64,000 nt of DNA from an uncultured Bacteroidia bacterium (GTDB lineage Bacteria; Bacteroidota; Bacteroidia; Bacteroidales; F082), in contig CADCML010000012.1 in NCBI GenBank assembly GCA_902802535.1, positions 47,523 to 111,522 of the forward strand, given 5' to 3'. Under the pieces are notes generated by a model that saw nothing but the letters and a program-made list of their open reading frames with translations, ran no database searches and was not told the DNA's origin. This document shows, piece by piece, positions 17,575 to 63,991 of this stretch. Position 1 is the first letter of the stretch, and every line of letters starts with the position of its first letter. The translations under genes and the position numbers were made by a program.

Positions 17575-17728
17575 GAAACTTTCATTTCATTTTGTTTCAT
17601 TTTTCCTGATTTTCATTCCGTTATTTGTTCTTTGTTTCGCTTTTTAAATAGTTGATAAACCAGATGCTCCAAAGCAATAAAATGGTAGATTTATTGGTAG
17701 TTTTTTATTGTCAGTACAAAAGAAATGT

Positions 17729-17736
17729 GTATTTTT
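17729..17736 (+). promoter_or_regulatory. -7 element of the integrase gene
   Basis: TATTTTTG followed by CGC lies about 20 bases upstream of the ATG at 17757 and excludes the upstream in-frame ATG at 17652. Confidence 0.6.
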
Positions 17737-17756
17737 GCGCATTCAAGATTAAAGCG

Positions 17757-19028
17757 ATGAGATTTATTAAACACGGTGTGGCAGTTTCTTTGAGTCGTCC
17801 TCGGAAAAATGGTGACTCATCTGTTGTGTTGAGGGTAACATGCGGAGGTAAGCGTGACGATCTTCATTCAGGAATTTGTCTCAACCCAAAGCAATGGAAT
17901 GAGAAAAAGGGTAGGGTGAGACATGGCGTTAATGTTAATGGAGCACCGTATAATGTATTGAATGATGCCATTGATGAACAAGTGAGTTTTATCCATGCCT
18001 ATTTCAATGGTTGCGCAATGCGCGATGAAGAAGCTTCGTTGTCTGATTTAAAGGCAAGATTTAATATGAAGTTTAAAACATCGGCGTCCAAGTCGTCCGA
18101 TGAATTCTTCTATTTGTTCGATAAGTTTATTTCGGTTACTTCGGAGACAAAAAGATGGGGTGAACCGATGAAAGAAGCTTTTACTCGTCTGAGAGAAAGA
18201 TTATATCGTTTTAAGCCGGATCTGAAGTTCTCTGATCTGTCAGAAGAGTTAATGAACAAGTTCTTGAGGGAACTGTCTACTACGATGTTTAATGATGCGA
18301 TTGAAAAGAGATTGTCGTATTTAAGACAGTTTGTAAAGTGGGCTGAGTCTCGAAACTATGGGATCAACAAGGAGTTCTTTGGCTTTTCGCCAAAATTGCC
18401 AAAGGCGAAGAAAGAGGTTCGGTATCTGACGCTCGAAGAACTTGAACGGATAAAAAACTGCGATATTAAGGATGGTACAGCACTTTCGCGAGTGCGTGAT
18501 TTCTTCTTGTTCCAATGTCATACAGCTCTGAGGTATTCAGATTTGAAACAGTTGAAAAAGAGCAACATTATTGCAAGGCAAGATGGCGGCTATAATATTC
18601 GTGTTTTGACCGAGAAAGATGATGATTATGTTACATTTAAGTTGAGCAAGTTGGCTACTGCTATATACTTAAAATACAGAGATACTGCACCTGATGAAGG
18701 GGCATTGTTTCCGGTTATTTCTAATCAGAAATACAATGAGGACTTGAAGGAGTTGGGCAAAAAGGCCAAGTTGCAAGGTGAGTGGATTGACTATGAATAT
18801 AAGCTAAGCACCAAGATTGAGGTCAAGTCACCTAAATCTGATATCGCCTCACATACTGCTCGACGAACTTTTATTGTGACCGCCATGAACGAAGGAGTTA
18901 GTTTGGAGTTGATAGCGGCAATCTCTTCCCACTCAGATTTTAATGCGATGAAGCCGTATATCAAGGCTAATACGCGAGGTACGGATCAGGTTATCGATGT
19001 GTTGGACAAGGCGACAGGGGAGGTGTGA
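17757..19028 (+). CDS. int: Tyrosine recombinase / integrase of the element
   Basis: A 423-residue site-specific recombinase expected to integrate and excise the element at tRNA-Ser. It has an arm-binding-type N-terminus (VSLSRPRKNGDSSVVLRV), a SAM-like core-binding domain (about 110-215) and the catalytic domain with Arg259 (HTALRYSDLK), His366-x-x-Arg369 (HTARRTF), a later His in SSHSDF and a probable nucleophile Tyr in MKPYIKA. All key residues are present. Its place next to the left attachment site supports its role. A likely terminator is at 19155-19181. The promoter at 17729 would be active in the integrated state. Confidence 0.93.
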   Translation: MRFIKHGVAVSLSRPRKNGDSSVVLRVTCGGKRDDLHSGICLNPKQWNEKKGRVRHGVNVNGAPYNVLNDAIDEQVSFIHAYFNGCAMRDEEASLSDLKARFNMKFKTSASKSSDEFFYLFDKFISVTSETKRWGEPMKEAFTRLRERLYRFKPDLKFSDLSEELMNKFLRELSTTMFNDAIEKRLSYLRQFVKWAESRNYGINKEFFGFSPKLPKAKKEVRYLTLEELERIKNCDIKDGTALSRVRDFFLFQCHTALRYSDLKQLKKSNIIARQDGGYNIRVLTEKDDDYVTFKLSKLATAIYLKYRDTAPDEGALFPVISNQKYNEDLKELGKKAKLQGEWIDYEYKLSTKIEVKSPKSDIASHTARRTFIVTAMNEGVSLELIAAISSHSDFNAMKPYIKANTRGTDQVIDVLDKATGEV

Positions 19029-37640: not shown

Positions 37641-37680
37641 GGTGTTCAAAAATAAATCTGATTACGCCATTTTGAACACC
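37641..37680. promoter_or_regulatory. Perfect 11-bp inverted repeat before the serine recombinase gene
   Basis: GGTGTTCAAAA (37641-37651) and TTTTGAACACC (37670-37680) are exact complements with an 18-base centre, 36 bases before the recombinase ATG. An extra GTTCAAAAA copy lies at 37627. The arrangement resembles a resolvase binding site (28-40 bp with inverted half-sites) or an autoregulatory operator. Confidence 0.65.
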
Positions 37681-37716
37681 ATTACAACCATTCAACAACA
37701 AATCTTTGATTTAATT

Positions 37717-38367
37717 ATGAACACAAACAACACCAAGGCCGTCATCTATGCCCGTGTCTCCTCCCAAACCGATAGACAGGACACGGCAAGACAGGTGGCC
37801 GATTTGAAACGATTCGCCTTATCACAGAATATGGAAATCGTGAGAACCTTTGAGGAACACATATCCGGGGCGAAAAAGCTTGAGGAACGGGAGATTCTTA
37901 CACAATGCCTGGACTACTGCAAGAACAATTCCGTCAATTATCTACTTATATCAGAACTGTCACGACTTGGACGATCCACACTCCAGGTTTTGCGAAGCCT
38001 TGAGATTCTGCATGAGGCCAAAGTATGCGTCTATATCCAGAACATCGGCCTTTATTCGCTGCAATCCGATGGTGCGGTCAACCCTATCGCATCCATTATC
38101 ATCACCATACTCGCCGAAATGTCAAACATTGAGAGAAGTAACATTCAGTATCGTCTCAATAGTGGGCGCCAACAATACATCAATCGAGGAGGTAAACTTG
38201 GGCGGCGTAAAGGTAGCGTAAAGACTATCGAGCAAAAGAAGGAAGAATATAAGGAGGTTATATCGCTACTTAAACGTGGGTATAGCATCAGAAACGTGGC
38301 TAGGCTGACGGGCTACAGCATACAGACCGTCCAGACAATTAAAAACCAATTCGTAAACAACAACTGA
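37717..38367 (+). CDS. Serine recombinase (resolvase/invertase family)
   Basis: A 216-residue site-specific recombinase. The catalytic N-terminal domain reads KAVIYARVSSQTDRQDTARQ (Arg13, nucleophile Ser15), followed by SELSRLGRSTLQVLRSLEIL with the conserved Arg pair and the long E helix (IIITILAEMSNIERSNIQYR). The C-terminal helix-turn-helix is SIRNVARLTGYSIQTVQTIK. Size fits small resolvases or invertases. The in-frame ATG at 37642 is rejected, because it lies in the inverted repeat. It may resolve element multimers or invert a nearby segment; no obvious invertible segment is seen. Confidence 0.9.
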   Translation: MNTNNTKAVIYARVSSQTDRQDTARQVADLKRFALSQNMEIVRTFEEHISGAKKLEEREILTQCLDYCKNNSVNYLLISELSRLGRSTLQVLRSLEILHEAKVCVYIQNIGLYSLQSDGAVNPIASIIITILAEMSNIERSNIQYRLNSGRQQYINRGGKLGRRKGSVKTIEQKKEEYKEVISLLKRGYSIRNVARLTGYSIQTVQTIKNQFVNNN

Positions 38368-47316: not shown

Positions 47317-48339
47317 ATGCCAAAAACGAAGAATGCAGAACTGCGTATTAAGGTGATAGACAGGTGTCTAAGTGACCAAGGCCGAAAGTATTCCACTGAG
47401 AGGATTTTTGAGTTGTGCAATGAGGAGTTGGAAGCAAGGGGCTATGATAGAATAACGGCCATGAATTCGATTAGGGCGGACATGGAGCAGATAGAGCGAA
47501 TGTACCCCGATGGAGAGATAGAAATGTATAAGGAGGGGAGGAACCGCTTTTACAGGTACAAAGACCCTGAGTTTTCTATCTATAAGACACCCATGAAAGC
47601 GGACGAGATTATTCAGCTGACGCAGACGCTGAATCTGTTGAAACGATTCAAGGGGATGCCTCAATTCAATTGGGTGGACGAGATAGCGGAGCGTCTCGGC
47701 GCTTCGCTGAAGCTCGATGAGGCTACGGATGAAATCGTAGGTTTCGACGAGAACCTGGATTTGGAAGGCATGGATAATTTCACGCCGCTCTTCAATGCCA
47801 TCGTTGATAAACAACCCCTGAGGCTGACTTACCAAAGCTTTAAGCAAGATAACAAAGAAACTATAATCGTGCATCCATACTATCTGAAACAGTACAATAA
47901 GCGTTGGTTCCTGATAGCATGGAACGATGAAAAGGACTTCATGGCCAACTATGCGTTTGACCGCATCAAGGGCATAGAGGATGCGAATTTGGCATATAAA
48001 CCGACTGATGTAAACTGGTTTGACTACTTCGATGAAATGATAGGTGTGTCGAAGGACACGAGGACTGAGCCACAGAAGGTGTTGCTATGGGTGTCGAATG
48101 CCTCATGGCCATACGTGAAGACCAAGCCGCTGCATGGCGCGACTCAACGGCTGGTGAATATGGACGAGACTGGTGCCTATATCACCATCGAAGTGTATCT
48201 GAACTATGAACTGGAACAACAGATTTTGAGCTTTGGCGAAAACATGAAAGTGTTGGAGCCAGTGGAACTGAAGGAGCGGATTAAGCAACGCCTCGGCGGT
48301 GCGATTTTAAATTATGTGGAAAAGGTTCAGAATGGGTGA
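47317..48339 (+). CDS. WYL-domain transcriptional regulator
   Basis: A 340-residue regulator: N-terminal winged helix (ELRIKVIDRCLSDQGRKYST, then TAMNSIRADMEQIERMYPDG), central WYL domain (LFNAIVDKQPLRLTYQSFKQ, then HPYYLKQYNKRWFLIAW and NYAFDRIKGIE), and the C-terminal WCX extension (VLLWVSNASWPYVKTKPLHG). WYL regulators often control phage-defence operons (BrxR and CapW types) by sensing a nucleic acid or nucleotide ligand. It is the first gene of the restriction region and is followed at once by the methyltransferase-kinase fusion. The start at 47317 follows the -7 element TATTTTTG near 47286-47293. Confidence 0.9.
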   Translation: MPKTKNAELRIKVIDRCLSDQGRKYSTERIFELCNEELEARGYDRITAMNSIRADMEQIERMYPDGEIEMYKEGRNRFYRYKDPEFSIYKTPMKADEIIQLTQTLNLLKRFKGMPQFNWVDEIAERLGASLKLDEATDEIVGFDENLDLEGMDNFTPLFNAIVDKQPLRLTYQSFKQDNKETIIVHPYYLKQYNKRWFLIAWNDEKDFMANYAFDRIKGIEDANLAYKPTDVNWFDYFDEMIGVSKDTRTEPQKVLLWVSNASWPYVKTKPLHGATQRLVNMDETGAYITIEVYLNYELEQQILSFGENMKVLEPVELKERIKQRLGGAILNYVEKVQNG

Positions 48340-48350
48340 ACCAATGGGAT

Positions 48351-48358
48351 GTACTTTT
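48351..48358 (+). promoter_or_regulatory. Possible internal promoter before the fusion gene
   Basis: TACTTTTG followed by CAAG lies at the junction of the WYL and fusion genes; a promoter here would give a transcript starting between the GTG at 48336 and the ATG at 48396. Confidence 0.45.
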
Positions 48359-48395
48359 GCAAGAAAAAAAAGAGTTTAACAGAACACTTATCATT

Positions 48396-50720
48396 ATGGC
48401 AGCATACGAAACTACGATTCCAAACGATGTTCTTAATATTATCAATGTCTTCATTTCAAAGAGAAGGGAGGACAAAGCTGGGGTTTTTATCGAAGGATAT
48501 AAGGACCTCATTGCATCGTTGTATAGCTTATTGCCAAATAAAGAGGCAGAACTGACGTCAAGTGCTTGGATGTATGGGGTTGATCTGTATAAGTATCTTT
48601 CAAATGACGACATCGACTCTCTGATGCAAAATCTTCCATCTGTGATGCGGTATTGCTTTAGCAGAAGAAACGAAGACGTTTTCAAAACAACTAGAACTGG
48701 CGAGGCAGGCATGCCTGATGAACTTATTGAGCTCTTCCTAAAAGCAATAAAGCCAAAGGAAGGAGCAACAATTTTCTTACCCTATGCATGTGACGCTGAA
48801 ATTGTTCTAACCCGTCCTGATTGCCATTTTACTGGATTTGAAATAGATTGTGAGAGATGGGCTATATCCAAAATGGTTTTCAATGCCTGTGGAATTGAAG
48901 CTGACATCAGATGCTGTCCCGATGCGAAGGATTATATAGAATCGGGCAAACCATTCGATTATATTTTCACTTTTCCTCCAATGGGCGGAAAAGAAGAGCG
49001 AAATGTGGTTGCTGAACTGATTCAGATCTCAAATAGAAATCTTAAGTACAATGGTGTGATGTTCTGCTATTTGCCGGTGGTTTTTTGCAATGAACAGAGA
49101 TTTTGGTATGATTTCAGGGAGGAAATACTCGGTCAATTTGGGAAATATAGTGTAATCAATATTGCGCTTGGTTCTGTCCTTAAACCCGCTGCTACAATTG
49201 GAATCTGCGCATTGTGTTTTACAAGAGATATTGATCAGCGCGTTCTCCTTGTGGATGCCACAGGAGAAGAATTTCGGGCAAAAGTTGATGTAGCAGGTAG
49301 TAAGGTAGCAAGATTGAAAGTCGAACACATCGTGGAATGCATAGAAAAACAAGACAAAAGGTACGTTTGGTTAGGGACTGTTAAGGATCTCAAACATCCG
49401 ATCAACCTTTATCCTGGCAGATATCTTTTGGAAGGAAGATTGAGTACTTTGAATCCTGGAGAAAGAAGATGCTCAATAGGAGATTTGGTTGAATTGTGTG
49501 TGTTAAAGCGCATTTCATCAAGTGATAAAGAATCAGTAAGGAATAGCCTCCCTGCTGTTGGAATGAAAGAGCTTTCCTCCAACTACATTAGTTGTGATGT
49601 GCAGGCAAAAATCGAACATAATTCTTACTCCACGACATTACGCGTTTTGGAGAATAATGCTTTGTTGGTAGGTTATATTAATGGCAAGTTTAAGGTTGGA
49701 AAGGTTATTGGTATAAATAATAGTAATTGTGTGATACTTCAGCAGCCAATTGTAGCCGTCAATGTAACCAGTGCTATGGTTAGTGAGGAGTTCTTCTTAC
49801 GAAGCATCCTTTCAGATGAGGTTAGAATGCAAGCGGAGGCTTTAGCTACAGGCACTGTTGCAACAAAACTCTCGGAGAGAGACTTCCTAGACATTAAAAT
49901 TGTTGTTCCTTCGAAAGACGAGCAAGACAGATTGTGCCGAGAGGACGCCCATAAGAGTTTGTCTGCTGCCGAGAAGAAGATACAAATCAGTTTTGACAGA
50001 TTCCGTGATGACATTCACATGAAAAAACATGCGATAGGTCAAGCTGTTTTAAGCCTTAATAGTTGGTGGAAGGTTCTTGAAATAGCGCATGATGAGGGAT
50101 TGATAAAGTATGATTCAGATGCTGTTGTAGACGATGAGCAGGGTATAACTGTCGAAGATGTCTTCGATAATTTATATAATGGCATCACCCAAATACAAAC
50201 TCAGATTAACAGATTCGATAGAGGCCATCGTCTAATAAGTTCTGATTTTTCCATATCGAGTTTTATCAACAACTACATAGAAACCCACAGGAAACCAGAG
50301 TTTCAATATGAGTTTATTGATGGAGCTTCGAGTGTTACAGTTGTCTTTCCACAAGAGGCATTAACAATGATATTCGATGATATTGTCAGCAACGCCTGTT
50401 GTCATGGCTTTAGAAATGAAGTTAAGATTGGCAATATTGTGAGGATAGAGTCCTCGTTGGAGGGCACTGACTGTATTGTGTTGGTGTCGAACAATGGAGA
50501 ACCATTGACATCTGACATCTCGCAAGAGGATGTTTTTACATACAATAGGACTGGCTCTTCAGAAAAGAATCATTCTGGCATAGGCGGTTATGAGGTCAGG
50601 AATCTGATACAACAATTTGATGGTGAGGTTGAATTTCTTTCCAACCCAAGTGAAGAGTTCCCAGTTTGTTATAAACTTGTGTTCCATAATACAAAAAACA
50701 TTTCTTATGATGGAGAATAA
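48396..50720 (+). CDS. Fusion: degenerate N6-adenine methyltransferase + HsdS-like recognition region + histidine-kinase-type ATPase
   Basis: A 774-residue protein (a GTG start at 48336 would add 20 residues). Residues about 80-290 follow the HsdM fold: helix with TGEAGMPDELIELFLKAIKP, then LPYACDAEIV where motif I (DPaCGtG) should be, FTGFEIDCERWAISKMVFNA, and TFPPMGG (193-196 F-P-P-M) where NPP(Y/F) should be. Loss of the glycines and the Asn suggests it no longer methylates. Residues about 330-520 resemble an HsdS half, with LSERDFLDIKIVVPSKDEQD. Then a helix with MKKHAIGQAVLSLNSWW (candidate phosphoacceptor His545), and residues 640-760 are a GHKL ATPase: N-box IVSNACCHGF (Asn666), SNNGEPL, and SGIGGYEVRNLIQQFDG. 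The next gene encodes a receiver domain. I know of no described protein with this order. Confidence 0.78.
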   Translation: MAAYETTIPNDVLNIINVFISKRREDKAGVFIEGYKDLIASLYSLLPNKEAELTSSAWMYGVDLYKYLSNDDIDSLMQNLPSVMRYCFSRRNEDVFKTTRTGEAGMPDELIELFLKAIKPKEGATIFLPYACDAEIVLTRPDCHFTGFEIDCERWAISKMVFNACGIEADIRCCPDAKDYIESGKPFDYIFTFPPMGGKEERNVVAELIQISNRNLKYNGVMFCYLPVVFCNEQRFWYDFREEILGQFGKYSVINIALGSVLKPAATIGICALCFTRDIDQRVLLVDATGEEFRAKVDVAGSKVARLKVEHIVECIEKQDKRYVWLGTVKDLKHPINLYPGRYLLEGRLSTLNPGERRCSIGDLVELCVLKRISSSDKESVRNSLPAVGMKELSSNYISCDVQAKIEHNSYSTTLRVLENNALLVGYINGKFKVGKVIGINNSNCVILQQPIVAVNVTSAMVSEEFFLRSILSDEVRMQAEALATGTVATKLSERDFLDIKIVVPSKDEQDRLCREDAHKSLSAAEKKIQISFDRFRDDIHMKKHAIGQAVLSLNSWWKVLEIAHDEGLIKYDSDAVVDDEQGITVEDVFDNLYNGITQIQTQINRFDRGHRLISSDFSISSFINNYIETHRKPEFQYEFIDGASSVTVVFPQEALTMIFDDIVSNACCHGFRNEVKIGNIVRIESSLEGTDCIVLVSNNGEPLTSDISQEDVFTYNRTGSSEKNHSGIGGYEVRNLIQQFDGEVEFLSNPSEEFPVCYKLVFHNTKNISYDGE

Positions 50721-51951
50721 TTCAGGAGTAATGTATAAAGTCCTTTGGGTGGAGGATGAGGATAAGTTTGATTCTAGCTTGAAAATCATTGCTAGAAAAA
50801 ACTATCGTATTCAACTTGATCGGTATGACAATTGGGATGATGCAGAAAAGGCGTTAAGGAATGATTTTCATTCGTATTCTGCAATTATACTTGATGCTTA
50901 TTGCAGAATTAAAAATGCAGCAATACTTAAAGACACTTTCTTGTCTTATGCCAAAGGTCGAATAGATGTTATCTGTGGAGAAAACAGGAGTGAGAAGCCT
51001 TGGTATGTCTTTTCGGAAGGGACGATGAGCGATTTCAACCGCACTACCACAAATATCAGCGAAGGAAGAAATAGTGAATGGGGAGAAATGTTGTATATCA
51101 AATCGGATACGGGCTCGTATGAGCGTATGTTTCAGACTATTCTTGAAGTTGCTAGCAAACAGCCCAACAATGTGGTCCTTTTCCGGCATAGGGATGTATT
51201 TGTCTATTTGGGGGACGAGAGATTGATTGATGACCGTGCGAGAAAAATAATGCTCAAGGTACTTGGTGCATTGTATTATCCAGAGGAAAATATTGGTTTT
51301 GAGTATCAAGGCAATCCTTTGCGCAAAGTGCTAGAGTATATATTTCGTTCCGCAAGAAAACAAGGGCTTCTTTCACCATACTGTTTCGACAAAGAAGACC
51401 ATGTGAATCTTACATATTCGAGTCTTTATTTGAAAGGCGGTACCGTCAATTTGAATGGCAAGGAGCATGATGTGGAAGGGACTATTCGTTGGGGAAATGA
51501 AAACGATTGTGTGTTTCCCGACAATGTGGCGAACATAGTAAGAGGCATTCTTGTATATGCAAATGTCGATTCCCACACTTATGAAATTGATGACGGACCA
51601 TTCAAGGTTGATGAGAGTAGCAAGGATTTGTTTTTCGGGTATGTTTTGCAACTTTGCTATGTGATAAAATGGTATGGAGAGTTTGTGAAAGAACATCCCA
51701 ATGTAAAGAAAAACCAATGTATGCAGGTTGAGAATGTTTCAGCACGAATACTTAGAAAGTCAAAAGAAAAATATGAAGGTGCACGAATGATAGTAGAGTT
51801 GGATAGCAGAGGCCATTACCATTGTGGAGATTGTTCTATATATAAGGGAGTTGCGGAGAGATTTCTTGGTTCTTTGGTGGAACTATATGGTGTTAAAGAA
51901 GAAGAGTATTATGGGTATCCTTATAGTGCTAAAATAAGAGCTGTAGAATAA
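50707..51951 (+). CDS. Receiver-domain protein with unknown C-terminal domain
   Basis: A 414-residue protein overlapping the fusion gene by 14 bases (starts at 50710 and 50731 are also possible). The N-terminus YKVLWVEDEDKFDSSL and YSAIILDAYCRIK give the acidic pair (Glu16-Asp17) and phosphoacceptor Asp63 at the spacing of a CheY-type receiver; the later conserved Thr and Lys are not clear (VICGEN stands at the Thr position), so phosphorylation chemistry may be altered. Residues about 130-414 are not a known output domain to me; there is a beta-rich middle (YLKGGTVNLNGKEHDVEGTI) and a helical end. Expected partner: the kinase-like domain next door. Confidence 0.72.
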   Translation: MMENNSGVMYKVLWVEDEDKFDSSLKIIARKNYRIQLDRYDNWDDAEKALRNDFHSYSAIILDAYCRIKNAAILKDTFLSYAKGRIDVICGENRSEKPWYVFSEGTMSDFNRTTTNISEGRNSEWGEMLYIKSDTGSYERMFQTILEVASKQPNNVVLFRHRDVFVYLGDERLIDDRARKIMLKVLGALYYPEENIGFEYQGNPLRKVLEYIFRSARKQGLLSPYCFDKEDHVNLTYSSLYLKGGTVNLNGKEHDVEGTIRWGNENDCVFPDNVANIVRGILVYANVDSHTYEIDDGPFKVDESSKDLFFGYVLQLCYVIKWYGEFVKEHPNVKKNQCMQVENVSARILRKSKEKYEGARMIVELDSRGHYHCGDCSIYKGVAERFLGSLVELYGVKEEEYYGYPYSAKIRAVE

Positions 51952-52022: not shown

Positions 52023-53909
52023 ATGACAGACACTCAAAACCTACACCCCCAACCTCGTGACATCATGCACTACGAGAGCGATATTTGGGCAATCGCCGAT
52101 TTGCTGCTGGCAGCCAGCGTGAAACAGAGCGACTTCCCGGCTTATATGATGCCGTTTTTCGCACTGATGATGCTCGAAGGACGTATGCTGAACGCCATGA
52201 AACGTGTGGAGGAAGAAGAGGGACTGACCGTAAAGGATGACCCCGAGGATTTCAAGGAGGCTTTCATCGACATGGATTGCGGCTACAATGAGTATATCGT
52301 GATGGAAGGCAAAACGCTGAGCAGCATCTGTGGCAACGACACCACCTTTGAACAGGACTTCGACAACTACCTGAAAGCCTTTGACGATGTGCTGAAGAAG
52401 CTGTTGGGCATTGAGCGTGGAAAGGACGAGAAGAAATACCTGAACATGGACTACTATGTGGCCGAACTGCGCAGTAAGAAGATCTTGTTGTCTGTCATCA
52501 CGGCATGGTCGAAGATTGACCTTTCGCCCTACGACAACTCCGCCATCACCACTTTGGAGGAACACATCAAGCGCAAGTGGGCCGACATCAGCGCATCTAC
52601 GGCTGGAGAACAATATACTCCTGACGATATTATCTCGCTGATTGCTGATATCGTGGCTTCGAAGGTGACGAAGCCCAAGAATCAGAACATCCATGTGTAT
52701 GACCCGACCTGTGGCGGTGCGAACCTGCTGTTTGGAGTGGCCGACCGACTTCAGACGCAAGCGGGCTACAAGAACATCCACACTTGGGGAAGCGAATACA
52801 ACGATGCGCTCTATGCTTTGGCCGCCATCGAAAGCCGCTTCCGCAGCCATTCCCAAATCAGCTATGGCAACACGCTCACGACGGCCCCGTTTGCTGGCAG
52901 AAGCTTCGATGTGATTGTCGCCAATCCTCCCTACGGCACCAAATGGAGCGGTTATGAAAGGGACATCAAGAACGACCAGAAAGGGCAGTTCCCTGGTGGT
53001 TTGCCCGCTGTGAGCGACGGACAGCTGTTGTTCATGCAGCATATCCTTTGGCAGCTTGATGAAAAAGGTATTGCCGTAGAGGTACACAATGGTTCCACGC
53101 TGTTCAGCGGTGATGCGGGAAGCGGAGAGAGCAACATCCGCAAATACATCTTCGACCACGATTGGGTTGAAGCAATTATCCAGATGCCTCAGAGTGAGTT
53201 TTTTAACACGGGGATATACACCTATTTGTGGATCATGAATAAGCAGAAACCTTTTGAGCGTAAGGATAAGGTTGCGCTCATTGACGGAAGCAAGCTTTGG
53301 ACACCATTGAAGAAGTCAAAGGGTGATAAGCGTCGTGAAATGAATAAAACCCAGCGCGCAACTATCGTAGAGGCTTTGACAGACTTCGCTCCCAGCGACA
53401 TCTGCAAGATATTCGACCGCGAGCATTTCTACTATAACAAACAGTCGCTCACGCTGACCGACCTCGATGATGACGGACGCAGTGTGGCTGATACCATCTG
53501 CAAGGAAGGCAAGGTGAAGGTCAAAGAGGATGAATACCGCTTTGATGAGGAGCGCAACACCATGATTCGCGTCGCCGACGGTGAAGCTGTAGGCTGTGGC
53601 CACTTTGTTACCAAGACCAAGAAAGACCGCAAGACGGGAGCGCCCATTGTGGAAACCTACATTGAACCGACCTACATCAACGACTACGAAATTATCCCTC
53701 ACCATTTCGACGGGCATGAGAATGAGCGCGAGATAAATGTGTTCATGCAGAAGTACGTTTTCAAGCCTTATACATTGGGTAAGAATGTAATTGGTGTTGA
53801 GCTGAATTTCAACAAAGAGTTCTACGTGCCAGAAAAGCTGGAAAGTGTGGAGGATATTCTGAAGGAACTGGCAGATCTGGACAAAGATATGAAGGAGATT
53901 CTTGTATGA
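52023..53909 (+). CDS. hsdM: Type I restriction enzyme modification subunit HsdM
   Basis: A 628-residue N6-adenine methyltransferase subunit. An N-terminal helical HsdM_N domain (residues about 20-190) is followed by the SAM-binding motif DPTCGGANLLFG near 228, STAGEQYTPDDIISLI before it (motif X), and catalytic NPPYGT at 301-306. Intact in contrast to the degenerate copy upstream. The C-terminal 150 residues form the extended helical tail that contacts HsdS. It overlaps hsdS by 4 bases. It transfers the methyl group from SAM to adenine in the site chosen by HsdS and is required for restriction by the HsdR complex. Confidence 0.95.
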   Translation: MTDTQNLHPQPRDIMHYESDIWAIADLLLAASVKQSDFPAYMMPFFALMMLEGRMLNAMKRVEEEEGLTVKDDPEDFKEAFIDMDCGYNEYIVMEGKTLSSICGNDTTFEQDFDNYLKAFDDVLKKLLGIERGKDEKKYLNMDYYVAELRSKKILLSVITAWSKIDLSPYDNSAITTLEEHIKRKWADISASTAGEQYTPDDIISLIADIVASKVTKPKNQNIHVYDPTCGGANLLFGVADRLQTQAGYKNIHTWGSEYNDALYALAAIESRFRSHSQISYGNTLTTAPFAGRSFDVIVANPPYGTKWSGYERDIKNDQKGQFPGGLPAVSDGQLLFMQHILWQLDEKGIAVEVHNGSTLFSGDAGSGESNIRKYIFDHDWVEAIIQMPQSEFFNTGIYTYLWIMNKQKPFERKDKVALIDGSKLWTPLKKSKGDKRREMNKTQRATIVEALTDFAPSDICKIFDREHFYYNKQSLTLTDLDDDGRSVADTICKEGKVKVKEDEYRFDEERNTMIRVADGEAVGCGHFVTKTKKDRKTGAPIVETYIEPTYINDYEIIPHHFDGHENEREINVFMQKYVFKPYTLGKNVIGVELNFNKEFYVPEKLESVEDILKELADLDKDMKEILV

Positions 53910-55111
53910 GACTACGAGTAAAAGATTTCACTACAAAAGTGGGCAGTGGCGTAACTCCCCGTGGAGGAGCCGAGACCTATCTTGAACAGGGAATTCCCTT
54001 GTTTAGGAGTCAGAATGTCTATGACAATGGTTTCCTCATGGATGACATAGCGTATATTTCAGAAGAGGTGGATGAGAGTATGTCAAGTACCCGAGTTAAG
54101 CCTGGCGATGTGCTTTTGAATATCACAGGGGCATCTATTGGCAGATGTTTCTATACATCAGATAGTTTTGAACGTGGTAATGTGAATCAGCATGTATGTA
54201 TTATTCGCCCCAAGAAGAATATTACGAGTCCATCGTTTCTGCATTATTGTATTATCTCAAATGAAGGGCAAGAACAAATCAACCTTTCTCAGACTGGAGC
54301 AAATCGGGAAGGCTTGTCGGTTGAGGACATTAAAGGCTTTTCTTTTGACATACCGACTCTTTCCGTCCAACAAAAAATAGTCGATTATTTGGATGAAAAG
54401 ACTTCCGCTATTGACACACAAGTTAAGCTGTTGGAAAAGAAGAAGGATGCCTATACTCGCCTGAAGAAAGCGATGATCAACCGTGCCGTCACACGTGGAC
54501 TTGATGAACACGTGAAGTTGAAAGACTCAGGTGTGGAATGGATTGGGATGATTCCTGAACATTGGAAAATCTATAGATTCAAGGATGTTTATAACAAATC
54601 TAATGTTGGTGAATCTATAGACAAAGAGTATTGTACGGATAATGAGGCAAATTATTTATTCTATACTGCTGGTATTATTCCTATACATACTGATTTTGAA
54701 GAGTTTCCACAATGGAAGTATACTAATAAAAACGATCTGTTATTAGCTAGAAATGGAACACCGTATGTTTATTTGCCAATACTCAATTCTGTGTATTCTG
54801 ACCATATCATTAGAGTAGATATTAAAAAGGGTTTCTGTAGAGAATATGTTCGTTTTTGTTTGCAACAGGCAATCTCGACTGAGGTTATAGATTCGGTGAG
54901 TATTCCTACATGGTCTATTTCTGTTTGGAATAAGCAATTGATGTCATTCCCTCCTCTCTCCGAGCAACAATCAATCGCCGCATACCTCGACGAGAAATGT
55001 GCGAAGATAGATGCCGCCATTGCCAACATAGACAAACAGACGGACGCATTGAAGCGTTTGAAACGGTCACTGATAAACGAAGTAATTAGCGGCAAAAGAA
55101 TGATAGAGTAA
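53906..55111 (+). CDS. hsdS: Type I restriction enzyme specificity subunit HsdS
   Basis: A 401-residue specificity subunit with two target-recognition domains. TRD1 begins VKDFTTKVGSGVTPRGG, with the conserved helix DIPTLSVQQKIVDYLDEKTS (near 150); TRD2 starts at GVEWIGMIPEHWKIYRFKDV near 211 and ends in FPPLSEQQSIAAYLDEKCAK followed by the closing helix RLKRSLINEVISGKR. Full length. It reads a bipartite DNA site; the sequence recognised cannot be deduced. Translationally coupled to hsdM. A single hsdS with no nearby recombinase-swapped copies, so no sign of phase-variable specificity at this locus. Confidence 0.94.
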   Translation: MRLRVKDFTTKVGSGVTPRGGAETYLEQGIPLFRSQNVYDNGFLMDDIAYISEEVDESMSSTRVKPGDVLLNITGASIGRCFYTSDSFERGNVNQHVCIIRPKKNITSPSFLHYCIISNEGQEQINLSQTGANREGLSVEDIKGFSFDIPTLSVQQKIVDYLDEKTSAIDTQVKLLEKKKDAYTRLKKAMINRAVTRGLDEHVKLKDSGVEWIGMIPEHWKIYRFKDVYNKSNVGESIDKEYCTDNEANYLFYTAGIIPIHTDFEEFPQWKYTNKNDLLLARNGTPYVYLPILNSVYSDHIIRVDIKKGFCREYVRFCLQQAISTEVIDSVSIPTWSISVWNKQLMSFPPLSEQQSIAAYLDEKCAKIDAAIANIDKQTDALKRLKRSLINEVISGKRMIE

Positions 55112-55137: not shown

Positions 55138-56832
55138 ATGAATATGACTGAACAAGAATATATCGATCTTTTCTATCTGCTATGGAACCATGCAGAGAAC
55201 GAAGTGGTTGAGTTCAAACGTGCCGAAAGCAACTACGACATCGACGACCTTGGCAAGTATTTCTCTGCCCTAAGCAACGAGGCAAACCTCCGTGAGCACG
55301 AGTTCGCTTGGCTCGTAATGGGTTGCTGGGACAAGAAACACATCATCGAAGGCACCAGTTTCAAGGACAGTGAGGAATCGCTGAACCGCCTGAAGCAGGA
55401 CATGTCGCAGCACACCACCGACAAACTGATATTCCGCGAGATAGTGCCCATTCATGTGGAGGGCAAACGCGTGCTTATGTTCAAGATTCCCGCATCGCCC
55501 AGGAATATCGTGATGCACTGGAAAGGCATAGCCTACGGCAGAGATGGAGAGAGTCTAGTGCCACTGAACCAAGCCAAGCGTGACGAAATCAGGAACCAGC
55601 CGCCAATACCGGATTGGACTGCCCAGTTAGTTTCCAATGCCACGATAGACGACCTCGACGAATTGGCACTTGCCAAGGCCAGAATCATGTATAAGAAGGT
55701 GCATGCCTCCAATATCCCGCCAGAAGAGGTAAACGGATGGTCAACAGAGGAATTCCTAAGCAACAGCAACATGATGCGCGACGGACAGGTCACCAGGGCA
55801 GCCATTTTGTTGCTTGGGAAGCCTTCTTCGTTGGACAAAATACATCCTGCCGTGGCTCAGATTACCTGGACGTTGGAGGATGAAGAAGAGATTGTGCAGG
55901 ACTATGAACACTTCGGCATACCTTTCCTGCTGACCGTTGACAAGGTGCTCGCAAAAATCCGCAATATGACAATGCGTGAACTTCCAGGCGGCACGTTGTT
56001 TCCCGACACCATGAAGCAGTATGACGATTATACTATCCGTGAGGCACTGCATAATGCCATTGCCCACCAAGACTATACTCTACAACAGCGTATAGTTTTT
56101 GTGGAAAGCCCCGGCAAGCTTTATTATGGAAACGGAGGCGACTTTATTCCCGGCACCATCGAAAAAGCACTTGAGCATAAAGGGCCGCAGAAGCACTACC
56201 GTAACGATTGCCTTTGCAAGGGCATGGTTCACTTTAATATGATAGATACCGTGGGACGAGGCATCAAGAAAATCTTCACCTTGCAACGAGAAAGGTTCTT
56301 CCCCATGCCTGACTATGACATAGACAAGGAGGAAAAGAGTGTGGGCGTCACCATCTATGGCAAAATGATAGACGAACGCTATACTGAACTGCTGAAAAGT
56401 GGCAGTAATCTGACATTGAAAGAGTGCTTATGGTTGGATGCCGTGCAAAAACATCGTCCGATAACTAAGGTGGCTCTCGAACATCTCAAGCAAAGGAAAC
56501 TGGTTGAAGGTCGAGGCAAAGAGATAATCATCTCATTAGGTGTTGCTCGTTTGACCCATCAAGTCCCTCAATACACCAAAAATAAAGGATTGGCATACGA
56601 AACACTCATCAAACTTATCTTGCAGTTAGCTTATAATGCAGGCGAGGCCGGATTTAAGAGAAATGACGCTTACGAGACTGTGGAAAATGCTTTGCCTGGA
56701 ACCAAGAGTCCAAAAGAAAAACTCGCATATTTGGGAAGAATACTTCTGAAAATGGGAGATGATGGGTTAATAAAGGCCATAGGGAGATCATGGTATATAA
56801 CCGAAAAAGGAGAATCTGAAATTCGAGTATAA
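55138..56832 (+). CDS. AlbA_2 (Schlafen-type) plus GHKL-like ATP-binding protein of the RM locus
   Basis: A 564-residue protein. Residues 15-140 form an AlbA_2 domain (AENEVVEFKRAESNYDIDD, FSALSNEANLREHEFAWLVM, IPASPRNIVMHWKGIAYGRD); residues about 260-400 form a divergent GHKL/HATPase_c_4 domain (TIREALHNAIAHQDYTLQQR with N-box Asn, then VESPGKLYYGNGGDFIPG and DTVGRGIKKIF). The last 150 residues hold winged helices. Such RecG-related ATP-binding proteins are commonly encoded between hsdS and hsdR, with unproven regulatory roles. It is the second GHKL-type ATPase of this locus. Its stop codon lies in a tandem repeat array (56820-56863). Confidence 0.88.
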   Translation: MNMTEQEYIDLFYLLWNHAENEVVEFKRAESNYDIDDLGKYFSALSNEANLREHEFAWLVMGCWDKKHIIEGTSFKDSEESLNRLKQDMSQHTTDKLIFREIVPIHVEGKRVLMFKIPASPRNIVMHWKGIAYGRDGESLVPLNQAKRDEIRNQPPIPDWTAQLVSNATIDDLDELALAKARIMYKKVHASNIPPEEVNGWSTEEFLSNSNMMRDGQVTRAAILLLGKPSSLDKIHPAVAQITWTLEDEEEIVQDYEHFGIPFLLTVDKVLAKIRNMTMRELPGGTLFPDTMKQYDDYTIREALHNAIAHQDYTLQQRIVFVESPGKLYYGNGGDFIPGTIEKALEHKGPQKHYRNDCLCKGMVHFNMIDTVGRGIKKIFTLQRERFFPMPDYDIDKEEKSVGVTIYGKMIDERYTELLKSGSNLTLKECLWLDAVQKHRPITKVALEHLKQRKLVEGRGKEIIISLGVARLTHQVPQYTKNKGLAYETLIKLILQLAYNAGEAGFKRNDAYETVENALPGTKSPKEKLAYLGRILLKMGDDGLIKAIGRSWYITEKGESEIRV

Positions 56833-56896: not shown

Positions 56897-59800
56897 ATGG
56901 ACGAGAAGAAGATACAGCATGAATATGTGATGGAGTTCCTTTGCCGCCTTGAAGAGCAAGGGGGCTTGGGCTATCGCAGCGTGAGCAACATTGTCGTCAG
57001 CAACGATTTGTTCATCCCATCCATTATGGGCGAGTTCGTTGAGAATAGTCAGCCTGAAACCTGGGCTCGTCTGCTAAAGAAGTTTGGTAATGACGAACAG
57101 GCCTTGCAAAACGCGTTGAAGGACAAGGTGAAGGAGACCCTTTTGGATGCTCAGAATGTGGCTATCTACATCAATGGCCACAAGTCCATCACCTTCGAGG
57201 GTGAAAAGGTTTGGCTGTTCTACGTCTCTGGAACAGAGCTGAAAGGAGACGAAGAGTTCAAGCAGAACATCTTCTGTGCTGTGGAGGAGTCGAGTCATAC
57301 GCTCAAAGTAGGCGAAACAAAGCTTTATACGATTCGCCCGGATATCATGTTTTTTGTCAATGGCATCTACATTGGCTACATGGAACTGAAATCGTCCACA
57401 AAAGGACAAACGGCACGTGTCAATGGACGTCAGAAGGTGGCGAAAGACTATCTGGCTACGGTGAAGGCATTGACGGAGCAGGAGAAGCGTGACGCAAAGG
57501 CCATGAAACAACGCAAAGAAGTGATGGCCATCTATGAGAAAGCCATACACCTGACGGCCAGCGACTGCAACGAAACCTACGTGATGCGTGGCATCAGCCA
57601 GTTCTTCGACCTTGCTCATCAGGGATTCGCCAGTGAACCGGCTAAGACTGTGGAAGAATTGACCCCCGCTGTATTGGATCCGTTCAAGGTATATCCTGTT
57701 ACGGCTTCGGCACAGACGGAGAAGCAACGGTTTGAGGATGTGATGCATGCTTTGTACGACAAGAAAATGATAGAGAAAGAGATCCTCTATTACAACTTTA
57801 TTGAGTACAAATACGTAAAGAAGGGAGGCGTGAAAGAACGCACCTCCAACACGGGCCGCCTGATAGCACCGCGTCCCAAGCAAAAGTTCGGTTGCGACAA
57901 GATTATGGGTCGCATTACGGAGATGCTGGACCATGAGAAGGAGCCTGGCTATTATATCAACAAACTCCGCAATTATTTGCAAACGCAGGGGATCACGCCT
58001 CAAAAGATAGAGGAAATTATCCTGTTGCGCGAACGCTATTTCAACAACAAGTTTGTCTATTCGCTTTTGTTGCAGTATGCCGCAGGGTTCGGAAAGAGTA
58101 ATATCATTGGATGGACGGCCTTGCAGCTGAAGGATTTCCGCTACGAGGGTAAGTACGCCTACGACAAGGTGATGATTGTGGTGGACCGTTTGCAGTTGCG
58201 CGACCAATTGGACACCATGATGATGAACATGAACATTGACAAGTCGATGTTTGTGGAGGCGACCGACCGAGACACATTTATCGAAGCTTTGGACGGAAAA
58301 CTGCGTATCATCGTCGTGAACATCCAAAAGTTCCTGGATTTGCAAGATGCCTTGTCAGTTGCTGGTAAAAAGTTAAAGAAGATGCGTGTGGCATTCCTTA
58401 TCGACGAGATTCACCGTAGCAATTCCGGAGAGAACAATCAGGAAATGATTGACCTTTTCGCCCGTCTGCAAGAAACGTTCAATGTGGGAAGTCAGACGGT
58501 GGTGAAGAAGAATCTGTTGATAGGTTTCACCGCCACGCCAAGTGAGGAAACGCTGGCAAAGTTCGGCGAGTTCCGCAGTGCGTTAACGAAACCGATGTGG
58601 ATTCCGTTCGATTGCTACACCATGCGCGAAGCCATTGAGGATGGTTACATTCTTGACCCCACAAAGGCCATTATTCCTTACGCTGTACCTGTTGATTTCC
58701 AACTGCCAGAAGAACTGGAAGACAGCGATGAAGATGACATCGACATTGTTCTCCGCAAGGATAGAGTCTATTCCTTCGAGCCGCGTATGCGCAAGATTGC
58801 CGAATTCATTGTGCATCGACTTGTGAGTCTGGTTTACAAGAAGATTCGCGGAGAAGGAAAGGCTATGTTGGCCGTGAGAAGTATTCCCAATGCCATCAAG
58901 TATTTCAACATCATTCGGTCGTTGTATGCCGAGAAATGCCAAGAAGCGGCCTACGAGAAATACAAGGATGCGCCCATCGTCATCATCTATAGCGATGACC
59001 AAAAGCACGAATCATGTTCCACGCTGAATGGAGGCTTGAGCGAAGAGAAAGTGCTCCAGAACTTCCGCCAAGCCAAGAATGGTTTGATTATCGTGGTGGA
59101 TAAGTTGCAGACGGGATTCGACGAGCCTAAACTTCATACGCTTTTCCTCGACAAGGAAATCAGCGATATCAATGCCATTCAGACCATCAGTCGAGTGAAT
59201 CGAAAGTATAATAATCACAAAAAAGATTGTCATGTTGTGGACTGTTCATGGCATAACGTGAATGTGGAAAACATCAGGCAGGCTTTCGAAAAGTTCTGCG
59301 ATATGGCCATTTCTGATTTCAATCCGGAATTTGAAGCCAAGAGCGTGGCTCGCACATACAAACTGCTTCAGGGTAGTGAACCTTATCTGCAATGGTATTC
59401 ACGCTATCAGCATGAGCACGAAGACACACATTTCGTATTGGAAATGGAAGATGGAATCCGTCAATGGATACAACAATGCTTTTATCAAGAGGATCTTGCC
59501 AAGAAATATAATGAAGAGAATGGTTTGAAGCCATCGGATGCCGACTACCATGCGGTGATAAACCCTGCTCGCGACCTGCGGAATTTGGTGGGTCATTATT
59601 TCTCTGGCATTCGGTTGTTGGACGGCGTTTTCGTTATTGACAGAAAGTACTATGACGAAGTGTTTCTGATGTTCTGGCAGGTCTATTGCCATATCTATCG
59701 TGAAGTGACCTATCAAACGGAGGACGAGCCCTACGAGTACGAGGTGATTGATAGCAACGAGGAGCCAGGCATTATTTTGGTGGAAGGGGGAGGAGAAGGT

Positions 59801-61027
59801 GGAGGCAGAGGGCGCGGAGGCTCACGCGGCGGTTCTGGTCCACAGACTCCCAAAGGCAAAAGCATGGATGAGGTGCTGGCCATTTTGCAAAGGCTGCATG
59901 ATACCGAACAACTGACAGCCGAACAAGCGCAAATCTGGCTGAAAGAAATCGGCTTGATGTTCGATTTTATCAAGGAAGACGAACAGTTCTGTGCCTTTGC
60001 GAAGGATGACAACTACACAGAAGAGGAAAAGCTGGCAGAATACAAGAAAGTCCAAGGAAAATACCGTCGTAGCTTGAAAAACCGTACCGATTTTCCACAG
60101 GTTGAGCTGTTCAAGCAGATGATAGCCGAAAACATTGAGCAATTGTTTGCCATCTTCATGTCAGACCTGCGCAATGTTGAAAACGGTGATTCCGACTTTG
60201 ACTATGATACCACAAATCAAGAGCAACCCAGGGAAGGGTTCTCCATGGAAGATTTGATGGAGATGGTGCGTCGCAAGATTCGTCCGGATTATAATGAGAC
60301 CAACCTGAAAGAACGGATTGTTGCTTCCTACGCATCTCATTTCAATGGGGTGTCAAGATATATGCCAGCATTCGATGATACGGTGAACACCATGTTTAGA
60401 GTATTGAATACGCCATCGTTGCCAGGGCTGGATGGTATGGATAATGTGGTGAAAGATTCCCTTAATATTGTATGCATGGCAGAAGGCCTTTCGCTGTCAG
60501 ATAAGCGAATGTATTTGGATATGCTGCTGATGCGCTACGAGGTATATCTAAAGAAACTCTATTATCTCATTCATGGTGAGGAGCTGCCTTCGAGAGAAGA
60601 AGGACAAGGAGCTACACTATCAAACGCCATCTTTGCCTTCCCTGCGCTTAGGGGATTGAAAAACAATCCGAAGTCTGAATATCAGGAGTTTTCACAAAGA
60701 TTGTCATTGTTGCGTCAATTGCGGAACCAGGAATCACATGGAAGCATTGAGATTAATGAGCAAGAGGTTGATGCTGCAATTCGTATCGTCATAGACATGT
60801 ACCTGTTTGTGACGGGCATGAATGTGGACAATTTGAGTGAAGAAAATGAAACGACCGTTGGAGGCGACATGACTCCTTTGCATCTTGTCAGCTATGAAGC
60901 GCACGAAGAGAGCGATTGGCCAATGGCTGCTGAAGATGTCTTTGTTTACGGTAGCATACCTGTCGACTTGCCCAAAATCAACAAAAAACCCAAAGACGAG
61001 GTGAAATCAGATATCTACCATTCGTGA
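56897..61027 (+). CDS. hsdR: Type I restriction endonuclease HsdR with Gly-rich linker and C-terminal HEPN-like domain
   Basis: A 1376-residue motor/nuclease subunit, some 300 residues longer than usual. The N-terminal nuclease has Asp149 and Glu163-x-Lys165 (RPDIMFF...YMELKSS). The helicase follows with Walker A YAAGFGKSNIIGW near 395, DEIHRS at 503-508, LLIGFTATPSE near 540, and RVNRKYNNHKKDCHVVD near 770. A Gly/Arg linker (EGGGEGGGRGRGGSRGGSG, about 963-985) leads to a helical region and a C-terminal domain with LRQLRNQESHGSIEI (Arg1276 to His1281), the Rx4H pattern of HEPN RNases. It should translocate DNA and cut unmodified DNA; the C-terminal part may be an RNase or assembly domain. An ATG at 56897 fits the start. 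Confidence 0.93.
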   Translation: MDEKKIQHEYVMEFLCRLEEQGGLGYRSVSNIVVSNDLFIPSIMGEFVENSQPETWARLLKKFGNDEQALQNALKDKVKETLLDAQNVAIYINGHKSITFEGEKVWLFYVSGTELKGDEEFKQNIFCAVEESSHTLKVGETKLYTIRPDIMFFVNGIYIGYMELKSSTKGQTARVNGRQKVAKDYLATVKALTEQEKRDAKAMKQRKEVMAIYEKAIHLTASDCNETYVMRGISQFFDLAHQGFASEPAKTVEELTPAVLDPFKVYPVTASAQTEKQRFEDVMHALYDKKMIEKEILYYNFIEYKYVKKGGVKERTSNTGRLIAPRPKQKFGCDKIMGRITEMLDHEKEPGYYINKLRNYLQTQGITPQKIEEIILLRERYFNNKFVYSLLLQYAAGFGKSNIIGWTALQLKDFRYEGKYAYDKVMIVVDRLQLRDQLDTMMMNMNIDKSMFVEATDRDTFIEALDGKLRIIVVNIQKFLDLQDALSVAGKKLKKMRVAFLIDEIHRSNSGENNQEMIDLFARLQETFNVGSQTVVKKNLLIGFTATPSEETLAKFGEFRSALTKPMWIPFDCYTMREAIEDGYILDPTKAIIPYAVPVDFQLPEELEDSDEDDIDIVLRKDRVYSFEPRMRKIAEFIVHRLVSLVYKKIRGEGKAMLAVRSIPNAIKYFNIIRSLYAEKCQEAAYEKYKDAPIVIIYSDDQKHESCSTLNGGLSEEKVLQNFRQAKNGLIIVVDKLQTGFDEPKLHTLFLDKEISDINAIQTISRVNRKYNNHKKDCHVVDCSWHNVNVENIRQAFEKFCDMAISDFNPEFEAKSVARTYKLLQGSEPYLQWYSRYQHEHEDTHFVLEMEDGIRQWIQQCFYQEDLAKKYNEENGLKPSDADYHAVINPARDLRNLVGHYFSGIRLLDGVFVIDRKYYDEVFLMFWQVYCHIYREVTYQTEDEPYEYEVIDSNEEPGIILVEGGGEGGGRGRGGSRGGSGPQTPKGKSMDEVLAILQRLHDTEQLTAEQAQIWLKEIGLMFDFIKEDEQFCAFAKDDNYTEEEKLAEYKKVQGKYRRSLKNRTDFPQVELFKQMIAENIEQLFAIFMSDLRNVENGDSDFDYDTTNQEQPREGFSMEDLMEMVRRKIRPDYNETNLKERIVASYASHFNGVSRYMPAFDDTVNTMFRVLNTPSLPGLDGMDNVVKDSLNIVCMAEGLSLSDKRMYLDMLLMRYEVYLKKLYYLIHGEELPSREEGQGATLSNAIFAFPALRGLKNNPKSEYQEFSQRLSLLRQLRNQESHGSIEINEQEVDAAIRIVIDMYLFVTGMNVDNLSEENETTVGGDMTPLHLVSYEAHEESDWPMAAEDVFVYGSIPVDLPKINKKPKDEVKSDIYHS

Positions 61028-63761: not shown

Positions 63762-63778
63762 GCGGAGAGAAAGGGATT
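63762..63778. other. Right attachment site inside the tRNA-Ser 3' end
   Basis: The second copy of GCGGAGAGAAAGGGATT; it is the 3' end of the intact tRNA gene, so integration leaves the tRNA functional. Confidence 0.85.
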
Positions 63779-63848
63779 CGAACCCTTGGAACGCAAAGCG
63801 TTCAACGGTTTTCGAGACCGCCCCGATCGACCACTCCGGCATCTCTCC
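63763..63848 (-). tRNA. tRNA-Ser (anticodon CGA)
   Basis: On the minus strand an 86-nt type II tRNA: acceptor GGAGAGA pairs with TCTCTCC, anticodon loop CTCGAAA (anticodon CGA, decoding UCG), a long variable arm (TGAACGCTTTGCGTTCC) typical of serine, and the T-loop TTCGAAT. CCA is not encoded. It is the integration target of the element: its 3' 17 bases recur at 17558-17574. Confidence 0.95.
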
Positions 63849-63906
63849 TTACTACCTTAGACAGATAGGGTCTTTCATTATAAAAGCGACAAACTGTCGC
63901 CCCTTG

Positions 63907-63991
63907 CGGAGACAGAGGGATTCGAACCCCCGAAGCCTTTCGGCTTAACGGTTTTCAAGACCGCCGCTATCGACCACTCAGCCATATCTCC
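63907..63991 (-). tRNA. tRNA-Ser (anticodon UGA)
   Basis: An 85-nt type II tRNA on the minus strand with anticodon loop CTTGAAA (anticodon UGA), long variable arm and T-loop TTCGAAT. Acceptor GGAGATA pairs with TGTCTCC (one G-T). It lies 58 bases upstream of tRNA-Ser(CGA) and is probably in the same transcript. Its 3' end differs from the att core (GACAGAGG instead of GAGAAAGG), which explains why the element chose the neighbour. Confidence 0.95.

Follow-up and report, generated by a model that had tools for sequence, protein, structure and literature searches.

The 64,000-nt stretch of DNA analyzed here (the window) derives from an uncultured Bacteroidia bacterium (positions 47,523 to 111,522 of contig CADCML010000012.1, GenBank assembly GCA_902802535.1). 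At 48396..50720 of its forward strand it encodes a 774-aa protein that unites, in a single chain, a methyltransferase-like (M) domain lacking the catalytic motif, an HsdS-type recognition (S) domain and a histidine-kinase core. Together with the gene that follows, it forms a kinase-receiver cassette that is conserved across Bacteroidota, usually includes a WYL regulator, and is repeatedly placed ahead of type I restriction operons. We lean, with modest confidence, toward a two-component system in which this protein is the sensor kinase and a disabled type I methyltransferase serves as its sensory half, with sequence-specific DNA binding as the input and the neighboring restriction or defense genes as the target of the output.

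The open reading frame of the kinase extends from 48336 to 50720 on the forward strand and is intact. Residue numbers refer to the 774-aa product that starts at the ATG at 48396; an alternative GTG start at 48336, which overlaps the stop codon of the upstream WYL gene, would yield 794 aa. When a profile of 53 relatives was compared with solved structures, it matched HsdM of EcoR124II (E 4.1e-23), the YycG kinase (E 4e-4) and HsdS (E 0.0025), with the modules ordered M, S, kinase along the chain. Single proteins gave no useful match in PDB searches, and in Pfam the window kinase taken as a single sequence showed only HATPase_c (residues 654-751, E 1.2e-4), at 23.0 bits against a curated cut-off of 26.4. 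Searched member by member (E<=0.01), the 53 kinases yielded HATPase_c in 53/53, N6_Mtase in 20/53 and Methylase_S in only 7/53, indicating that most of them are too diverged for single-sequence annotation. In two more distant kinases (L138 and L143), N6_Mtase, Methylase_S and HATPase_c all exceed the Pfam cut-offs within a single chain. The sequence-only reading, which had described one 774-residue protein joining three modules, was thus borne out by the intact frame and by the PADLOC, Pfam and profile matches, and the motifs that it quoted (LPYACDAEI as motif I, FPPM as motif IV, and MKKHAIGQ with His545) read as written. It had allowed that the methyltransferase and GHKL folds might be missing; homology of both regions was found by profile comparison.

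The HsdM-like domain occupies residues 98-315 (48687..49340, forward strand) and was recognized by the PADLOC mad2 model (E 1.2e-8), which matched 18 of the 53 kinases. At the NCBIfam curated scores the window was not assigned to MADS: MAD2 reached 23.7 of 720 bits and MAD5 43.1 of 400 bits, both on the ordinary hsdM and hsdS, and neither matched the kinase. The proposal that the domain is degenerate was supported, in that the catalytic motif is absent from all 49 Bacteroidales kinases that have an M domain, the window kinase included. None of these 49, one of which is cut by a contig end, has [ND]PP[YFW] at motif IV; one reads SPPF, a form found in N4-cytosine enzymes, and many have no PP at that place. 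Based on these motif columns, the domain of the window kinase is predicted to be unable to methylate. Among 14 more distant kinases with an M domain, L142 reads NPPL and L143 retains NPPW, so that loss of motif IV is not universal. The M domain is missing altogether from 4 of the 53 kinases (L044-L047): the methyltransferase-like domain is dispensable, and the HsdS-type domain is the constant part of the sensor. In two further kinases (L028 3381-5615 and L029 4762-6963), an HNH-like N-terminus, identified by Pfam in the former and by resemblance in the latter, occupies the position of the M domain.

The HsdS-type target recognition domain, together with the helix that follows it, comprises residues 353-532 (49452..49991, forward strand; best PADLOC Specificity_I match, E 2.6e-11). 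It was detected in all three size classes of the kinase, each compared with HsdS halves as one pooled profile rather than protein by protein. The main recognition region of 49 kinases matched HsdS halves at E 6.5e-11, with ATPase and M-region controls at 0.052 and 0.49, respectively. The N-termini of the short kinases L044-L047 (447-448 aa) matched at E 3.5e-6, and an additional N-terminal region of six kinases of ~1000 aa did so at E 4e-5. Whereas a separate HsdS subunit has two recognition domains, the window kinase has one, fused to the kinase core, and a second, recognition-like domain at the N-terminus occurs only in the ~1000-aa forms. The four short kinases, consisting of a recognition domain and kinase core only, lie beside a receiver in a conserved neighborhood of housekeeping-looking genes and are possibly domesticated.

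The C-terminal part of the protein is a GHKL ATPase domain (residues 654-751; 50355..50648, forward strand), which aligned with the corresponding region of 29 ordinary HisKA kinases in a profile comparison at E 9.7e-15. Seven residues are invariant in the 53 kinases (His545, Asn666, Ala667, Asn699, Gly701, Gly728 and Gly730), and the N, G1 and G2 boxes are accounted for by Asn666, Gly701, Gly728 and Gly730. These residues played no part in the selection of the loci. His545 (codon 50028..50030, forward strand), the proposed phosphorylation site, lies in an H-box of the form [KR]H[AS]xxQ in 52 of the 53 kinases and RHQLSN in the remaining one. All 16 distant kinases have this His as well, in forms such as HEIGN and HELTP, which we take to resemble ordinary HisKA boxes. 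The sequence-only reading had postulated a GHKL ATPase with a candidate dimerization and histidine phosphotransfer (DHp) helix; the ATPase and the invariant His stood up in every member, while the DHp helix gave no convincing alignment with HisKA profiles (see below).

The next gene (50707..51951, forward strand, its start being approximate) begins within the end of the kinase gene, overlapping the stop codon, and encodes a response-regulator-like protein of 414 aa. In one pairwise profile comparison, the N-terminal part of this receiver matched ten receivers of the same genome with a probability of 93.8 and an E-value of 1.7e-7. The proposed phospho-acceptor, Asp63 (codon 50893..50895, forward strand), and Lys132 are invariant in 53/53 receivers. 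All 53 have D or E at position 16; at position 17, 43 have D and 10 have N. Loci were collected with a pair of peptide patterns, and Asp63 is part of one of them (of the 52 further receivers, 22 match that pattern only, 18 the other only and 12 both); for this reason, 19 receivers found by profile were checked, and both Asp63 and Lys132 were present in 19/19. The suggestion that signaling proceeds through the product of the next gene is supported by these residues and by the pairing described below, and the kinase-receiver anatomy as a whole is well supported. The C-terminal domain of the receiver is conserved and contains an invariant His290. The window receiver had no Pfam or PADLOC match, including to PNP or another named Detocs effector. 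A likeness of its C-terminus to DUF4145/HEPN was considered and set aside as a weak hint, with a local E-value of 0.019, a global one of 0.52 and controls at 0.4 and 0.043; DUF4145 was found in 1 of the 53 receivers at E 0.0051, and weakly in that of L049 (0.078).

A single-sequence scan of genome contigs returned no relative, and a receiver alignment (A4) was then used, which recovered 52 further loci. Fifty of these are titled Bacteroidales or Bacteroidia, counting two Candidatus names that we presume to belong there, and two are metagenome assemblies titled Erysipelothrix and Lachnospiraceae; 5 of the 52 locus sets repeat contigs already met in other searches of this analysis. All 52 loci have the kinase immediately ahead of the receiver in the same orientation, at a distance of -46 to 65 bp. 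A WYL homolog precedes the kinase within 4 kb on the same strand in 41; of the 11 loci that lack it, five have the kinase within 800 bp of the contig start, and L043 has a WYL homolog upstream on the opposite strand. The cassette is sparse: matches occurred in 5 of 100 related genomes (the source genome included), and receiver-profile searches found it in 12 of 393 genomes across the order and 11 of 395 across the phylum. Leaving out the source genome, receiver and kinase are neighbors in 9 of 11 genomes from the order-wide search and in 9 of 10 loci from the phylum-wide one. The exceptions are L030, in which the contig ends beside the receiver, L031, and L147, in which the receiver is found among CRISPR-like genes. 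In these three loci, family receivers (L147 9051-9974, L030 3922-4770 and L031 1481-2341) were seen by eye beside Cas6-like or other CRISPR-like ORFs, with no adjoining kinase found and L030 cut by its contig end. A receiver-domain protein without a kinase, Cam2, is described in type III CRISPR loci in the part of the report drawn on here (PMC11229360). No viral contig matched when scanned with A4, and no plasmid matched the kinase by tblastn at 1e-8. A search of phages with the kinase returned one record, MT835483.1 (L084), an unverified human-faecal scaffold called Bacteriophage sp. that contains WYL, kinase, receiver, hsdM, hsdS and hsdR along with ORFs resembling integrases; in appearance it is closer to a mobile element of bacteria than to a phage.

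These loci also bear on whether an assembly or sequencing artefact fused ordinary separate genes. The source genome is fragmented (139 contigs, completeness 84.99, contamination 6.3), which would favor such an error. The same M-S-kinase fusion occurs, however, in 48 of the 52 other loci, the remaining 4 being the short S-kinase forms, and independent records that carry it include Segatella copri iAQ1173, Bacteroides muris NM69_E16B, Prevotella sp. HJM029 and Parabacteroides sp. PM6-13. The homologs are whole genes and not ordinary genes split by sequencing error, as the sequence-only reading had feared. We thus regard an artefact as refuted by the independent records, with a probability close to nil.

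On the forward strand of the window, the gene order is WYL, kinase, receiver, hsdM, hsdS, AlbA_2, hsdR. The WYL/WCX-domain transcriptional regulator is encoded at 47317..48339 (open from 47290; Pfam WYL E 1.4e-15, WCX E 1.7e-10). Downstream of the receiver are hsdM (52023..53909; N6_Mtase E 1.6e-47), a type I methyltransferase with an intact NPPY, and the specificity subunit gene hsdS (53906..55111; Methylase_S E 2e-21). A protein with SLFN_AlbA_2 and HATPase_c_4 domains by Pfam (55138..56832), of which a same-cluster protein is found near the cassette in 8 other loci, separates hsdS from hsdR. The restriction subunit itself, at 56897..61027, was recognized by SWI2_SNF2 (E 1.7e-18) and HSDR_N (E 2e-7), and by TIGR00348 (E 1.3e-41) below its curated cut-off. 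An hsdM directly follows the receiver in 8 of the 52 loci (L034, L036, L062, L067, L071, L072, L080 and L083), with hsdS next in each, as well as in the window, in L084 and in 6 of 10 phylum-wide loci (L138, L139, L141, L142, L143 and L144). [ND]PP[YF] is retained in 16 of 16 adjacent hsdM ORFs. When linked at 35% identity, the hsdM genes form six groups, indicating that the pairing of hsdM with the receiver arose or was exchanged more than once. Other neighbors were counted over 54 loci, from 6 kb upstream to 8 kb downstream. Members of a PIF1-like helicase family, of which one representative was tested, occur in 17 (e.g., L065 5513-7576 and L049 11447-13528, downstream of the receiver) and are possibly a second class of partner. 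An AlbA_2-family protein occurs in 9 loci, hsdS in 10, and a protein that we take to be DUF1016 in 7. At other loci no defense gene was apparent. A DUF7255 protein was also seen beside the cassette in L024 (12861-13508, by Pfam) and L026 (4028-4408, by resemblance).

The sensor and kinase halves diverge unequally, in either direction, and pairwise identity shifts near His545. In the pair L061/L068, residues 51-500 are 16-36% identical, compared with 68-84% beyond residue 550; the pair L058/L063 shows the opposite trend, with 66-94% before and 56-82% after. Such uneven halves would be expected from exchange of sensor modules, although uneven rates could contribute. Rank correlations of divergence with the receiver were 0.68 for the ATPase, 0.65 for the recognition domain and 0.39 for the M domain, and fail to separate co-evolution of the receiver with the kinase from co-evolution with the sensor.

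Histidine kinases act as dimers, and the core of a type I enzyme is M2S. In a dimer of the window kinase, two HsdM-like and two HsdS-type domains would come together on DNA, mimicking that core, and the dimer would bind, but not methylate, a particular DNA sequence. Since the match to HsdS stops at residue 532 and the candidate phosphorylation site is residue 545, the helix of the HsdS part is probably continuous with that of DHp. Binding to DNA could then alter the dimer, the change being passed by the post-recognition helix into the DHp helix. His545 would be phosphorylated and the phosphate moved to Asp63 of the receiver, which, perhaps with the WYL regulator, may change the expression or activity of the linked restriction or other defense genes. 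In this scheme, DNA as the signal is suggested by the fold of the sensory half, and the direction of signaling and its effect on restriction are likewise put forward as suggestions. A more specific version, in which the kinase reads both DNA sequence and methylation state through the dead methyltransferase and phosphorylation licenses or unleashes the neighboring restriction system, is one that we entertain only tentatively.

A number of observations weigh against a DNA-reading two-component system that acts on restriction. In 49 of the 53 kinases, His545 is followed by Ala rather than by the usual acid, and the Asp of the G1 box is replaced by Asn in all 53; both a non-acidic residue after the His and an Asn for the G1 Asp occur in some active kinases. 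The first DHp helix alone could not be aligned convincingly with HisKA profiles (local E 0.065, global 0.0067), and its assignment therefore rests on the invariant His545, the spacing of 121 residues between His545 and Asn666, and the cognate receiver. None of the 53 receivers gave a Pfam Response_reg match at E<=0.01, and the receiver profile reached an ordinary response regulator in the PDB only at E 0.27. Apart from the weak DUF4145 hint, the C-terminal domain of the receiver has no Pfam family, and it has no recognised DNA-binding part. Comparison of 9 kinase recognition domains with 10 HsdS showed no preference for the HsdS of the same operon, which argues against a kinase that senses exactly the sites of its partner enzyme. 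Lastly, 44 of the 52 loci have no hsdM directly after the receiver, and several have housekeeping neighbors only, with L044-L047 among housekeeping-looking genes.

The last point would also fit a self-contained defense system, in which a DNA-activated kinase signals to the receiver as effector (e.g., to stop growth) and the restriction genes are mere neighbors in an island, as would the conserved C-terminal domain of the receiver with its invariant His290. That domain, however, matches no effector family, and hsdM of six groups directly follows the receiver across short gaps in 16 loci in all; we judge this explanation unlikely. Variety among the neighbors (the PIF1-like helicase, AlbA_2 and hsdS counts given above) and the frequent WYL regulator are what one would expect if the kinase were a sensor of DNA damage or stress that, like CapK, responded to generic DNA (e.g., single strands) by raising expression of an adjacent defense operon. 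An HsdS-type domain that diverges faster than the kinase half is better suited to a specific sequence, and we consider a generic sensor of this type quite unlikely. It is also conceivable that the protein is a decoy or regulatory subunit, joining the resident HsdM/HsdS complex or competing with it for DNA, with phosphorylation secondary. Its M and S domains do resemble the subunits of the adjacent enzyme, but the invariant kinase and receiver residues, the constant gene pair, the short kinases that lack an M domain and the many loci without adjacent type I genes make this a very improbable account.

Among known systems, CapK/CapS is the nearest in logic. There, a GHKL kinase and its partner are encoded beside immune operons, some of them near restriction-modification genes, and control the adjacent operon in response to DNA (PMC13373217, in the part drawn on here), with single-stranded DNA activating CapK. 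CapK is composed of HTH, STAS and GHKL domains, with a Ser of a STAS-wHTH repressor as its phosphorylation target, according to the same part of that report (PMC13373217), whereas the window system has an HsdM/HsdS-like sensor, an invariant His, a receiver Asp and a partner without a STAS match. Detocs likewise applies two-component logic to defense with three genes, although the effector best described for it is a PNP domain that cleaves ATP, and the part of its description drawn on here mentions no restriction-derived sensor (PMC11249213); the window set is instead WYL, kinase and receiver. The M-like and recognition domains share fold homology with type I HsdM and HsdS, from which the kinase differs in its missing catalytic motif, its mostly single recognition domain and its fusion to a kinase core. 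BrxR-type WYL regulators also lie upstream of defense genes, type I systems included, but no accompanying kinase-receiver pair is described in the portion of the source consulted (PMC9122601). RptR, too, is a regulator dedicated to the type I operon beside which it is encoded; in the sections of its report used here it is a small, single-domain, DNA-binding repressor without a kinase (PMC12255303). The part of a BREX survey drawn on here (PMC12839542) mentions fusions between Schlafen proteins and a minimal histidine kinase, which recall the AlbA_2 gene of the window rather than the sensor kinase. No description of an M-S-kinase fusion was found in open-access papers, the search being one that left most subscription papers, and bioRxiv, outside its reach. 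We know of no histidine kinase that has a specific DNA sequence or its methylation as input. What would be new here is the kind of input; the two-component framework is already known.

If the proposed sensing of DNA sequence is true, it would reveal how the restraint or release of some type I systems is matched to the DNA that a cell contains, and would bear on the old question of how type I enzymes spare unmodified host DNA. The kinase would be a modular sensor, with a changeable DNA-reading half and a constant kinase, by which the cell is told which DNA is present and sets its defenses accordingly.

In the remainder of the window, an Rfam scan of 46-62 kb produced nothing that reached a gathering score, and the only repeats ahead of the WYL gene were short and imperfect. 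ORFs at 17652-19028 and 37642-38367 resemble, by eye, a tyrosine recombinase and a resolvase, respectively, and two tRNA-Ser genes lie at the end of the window (63762-63991). Together, these features suggest that part of the region may be mobile.

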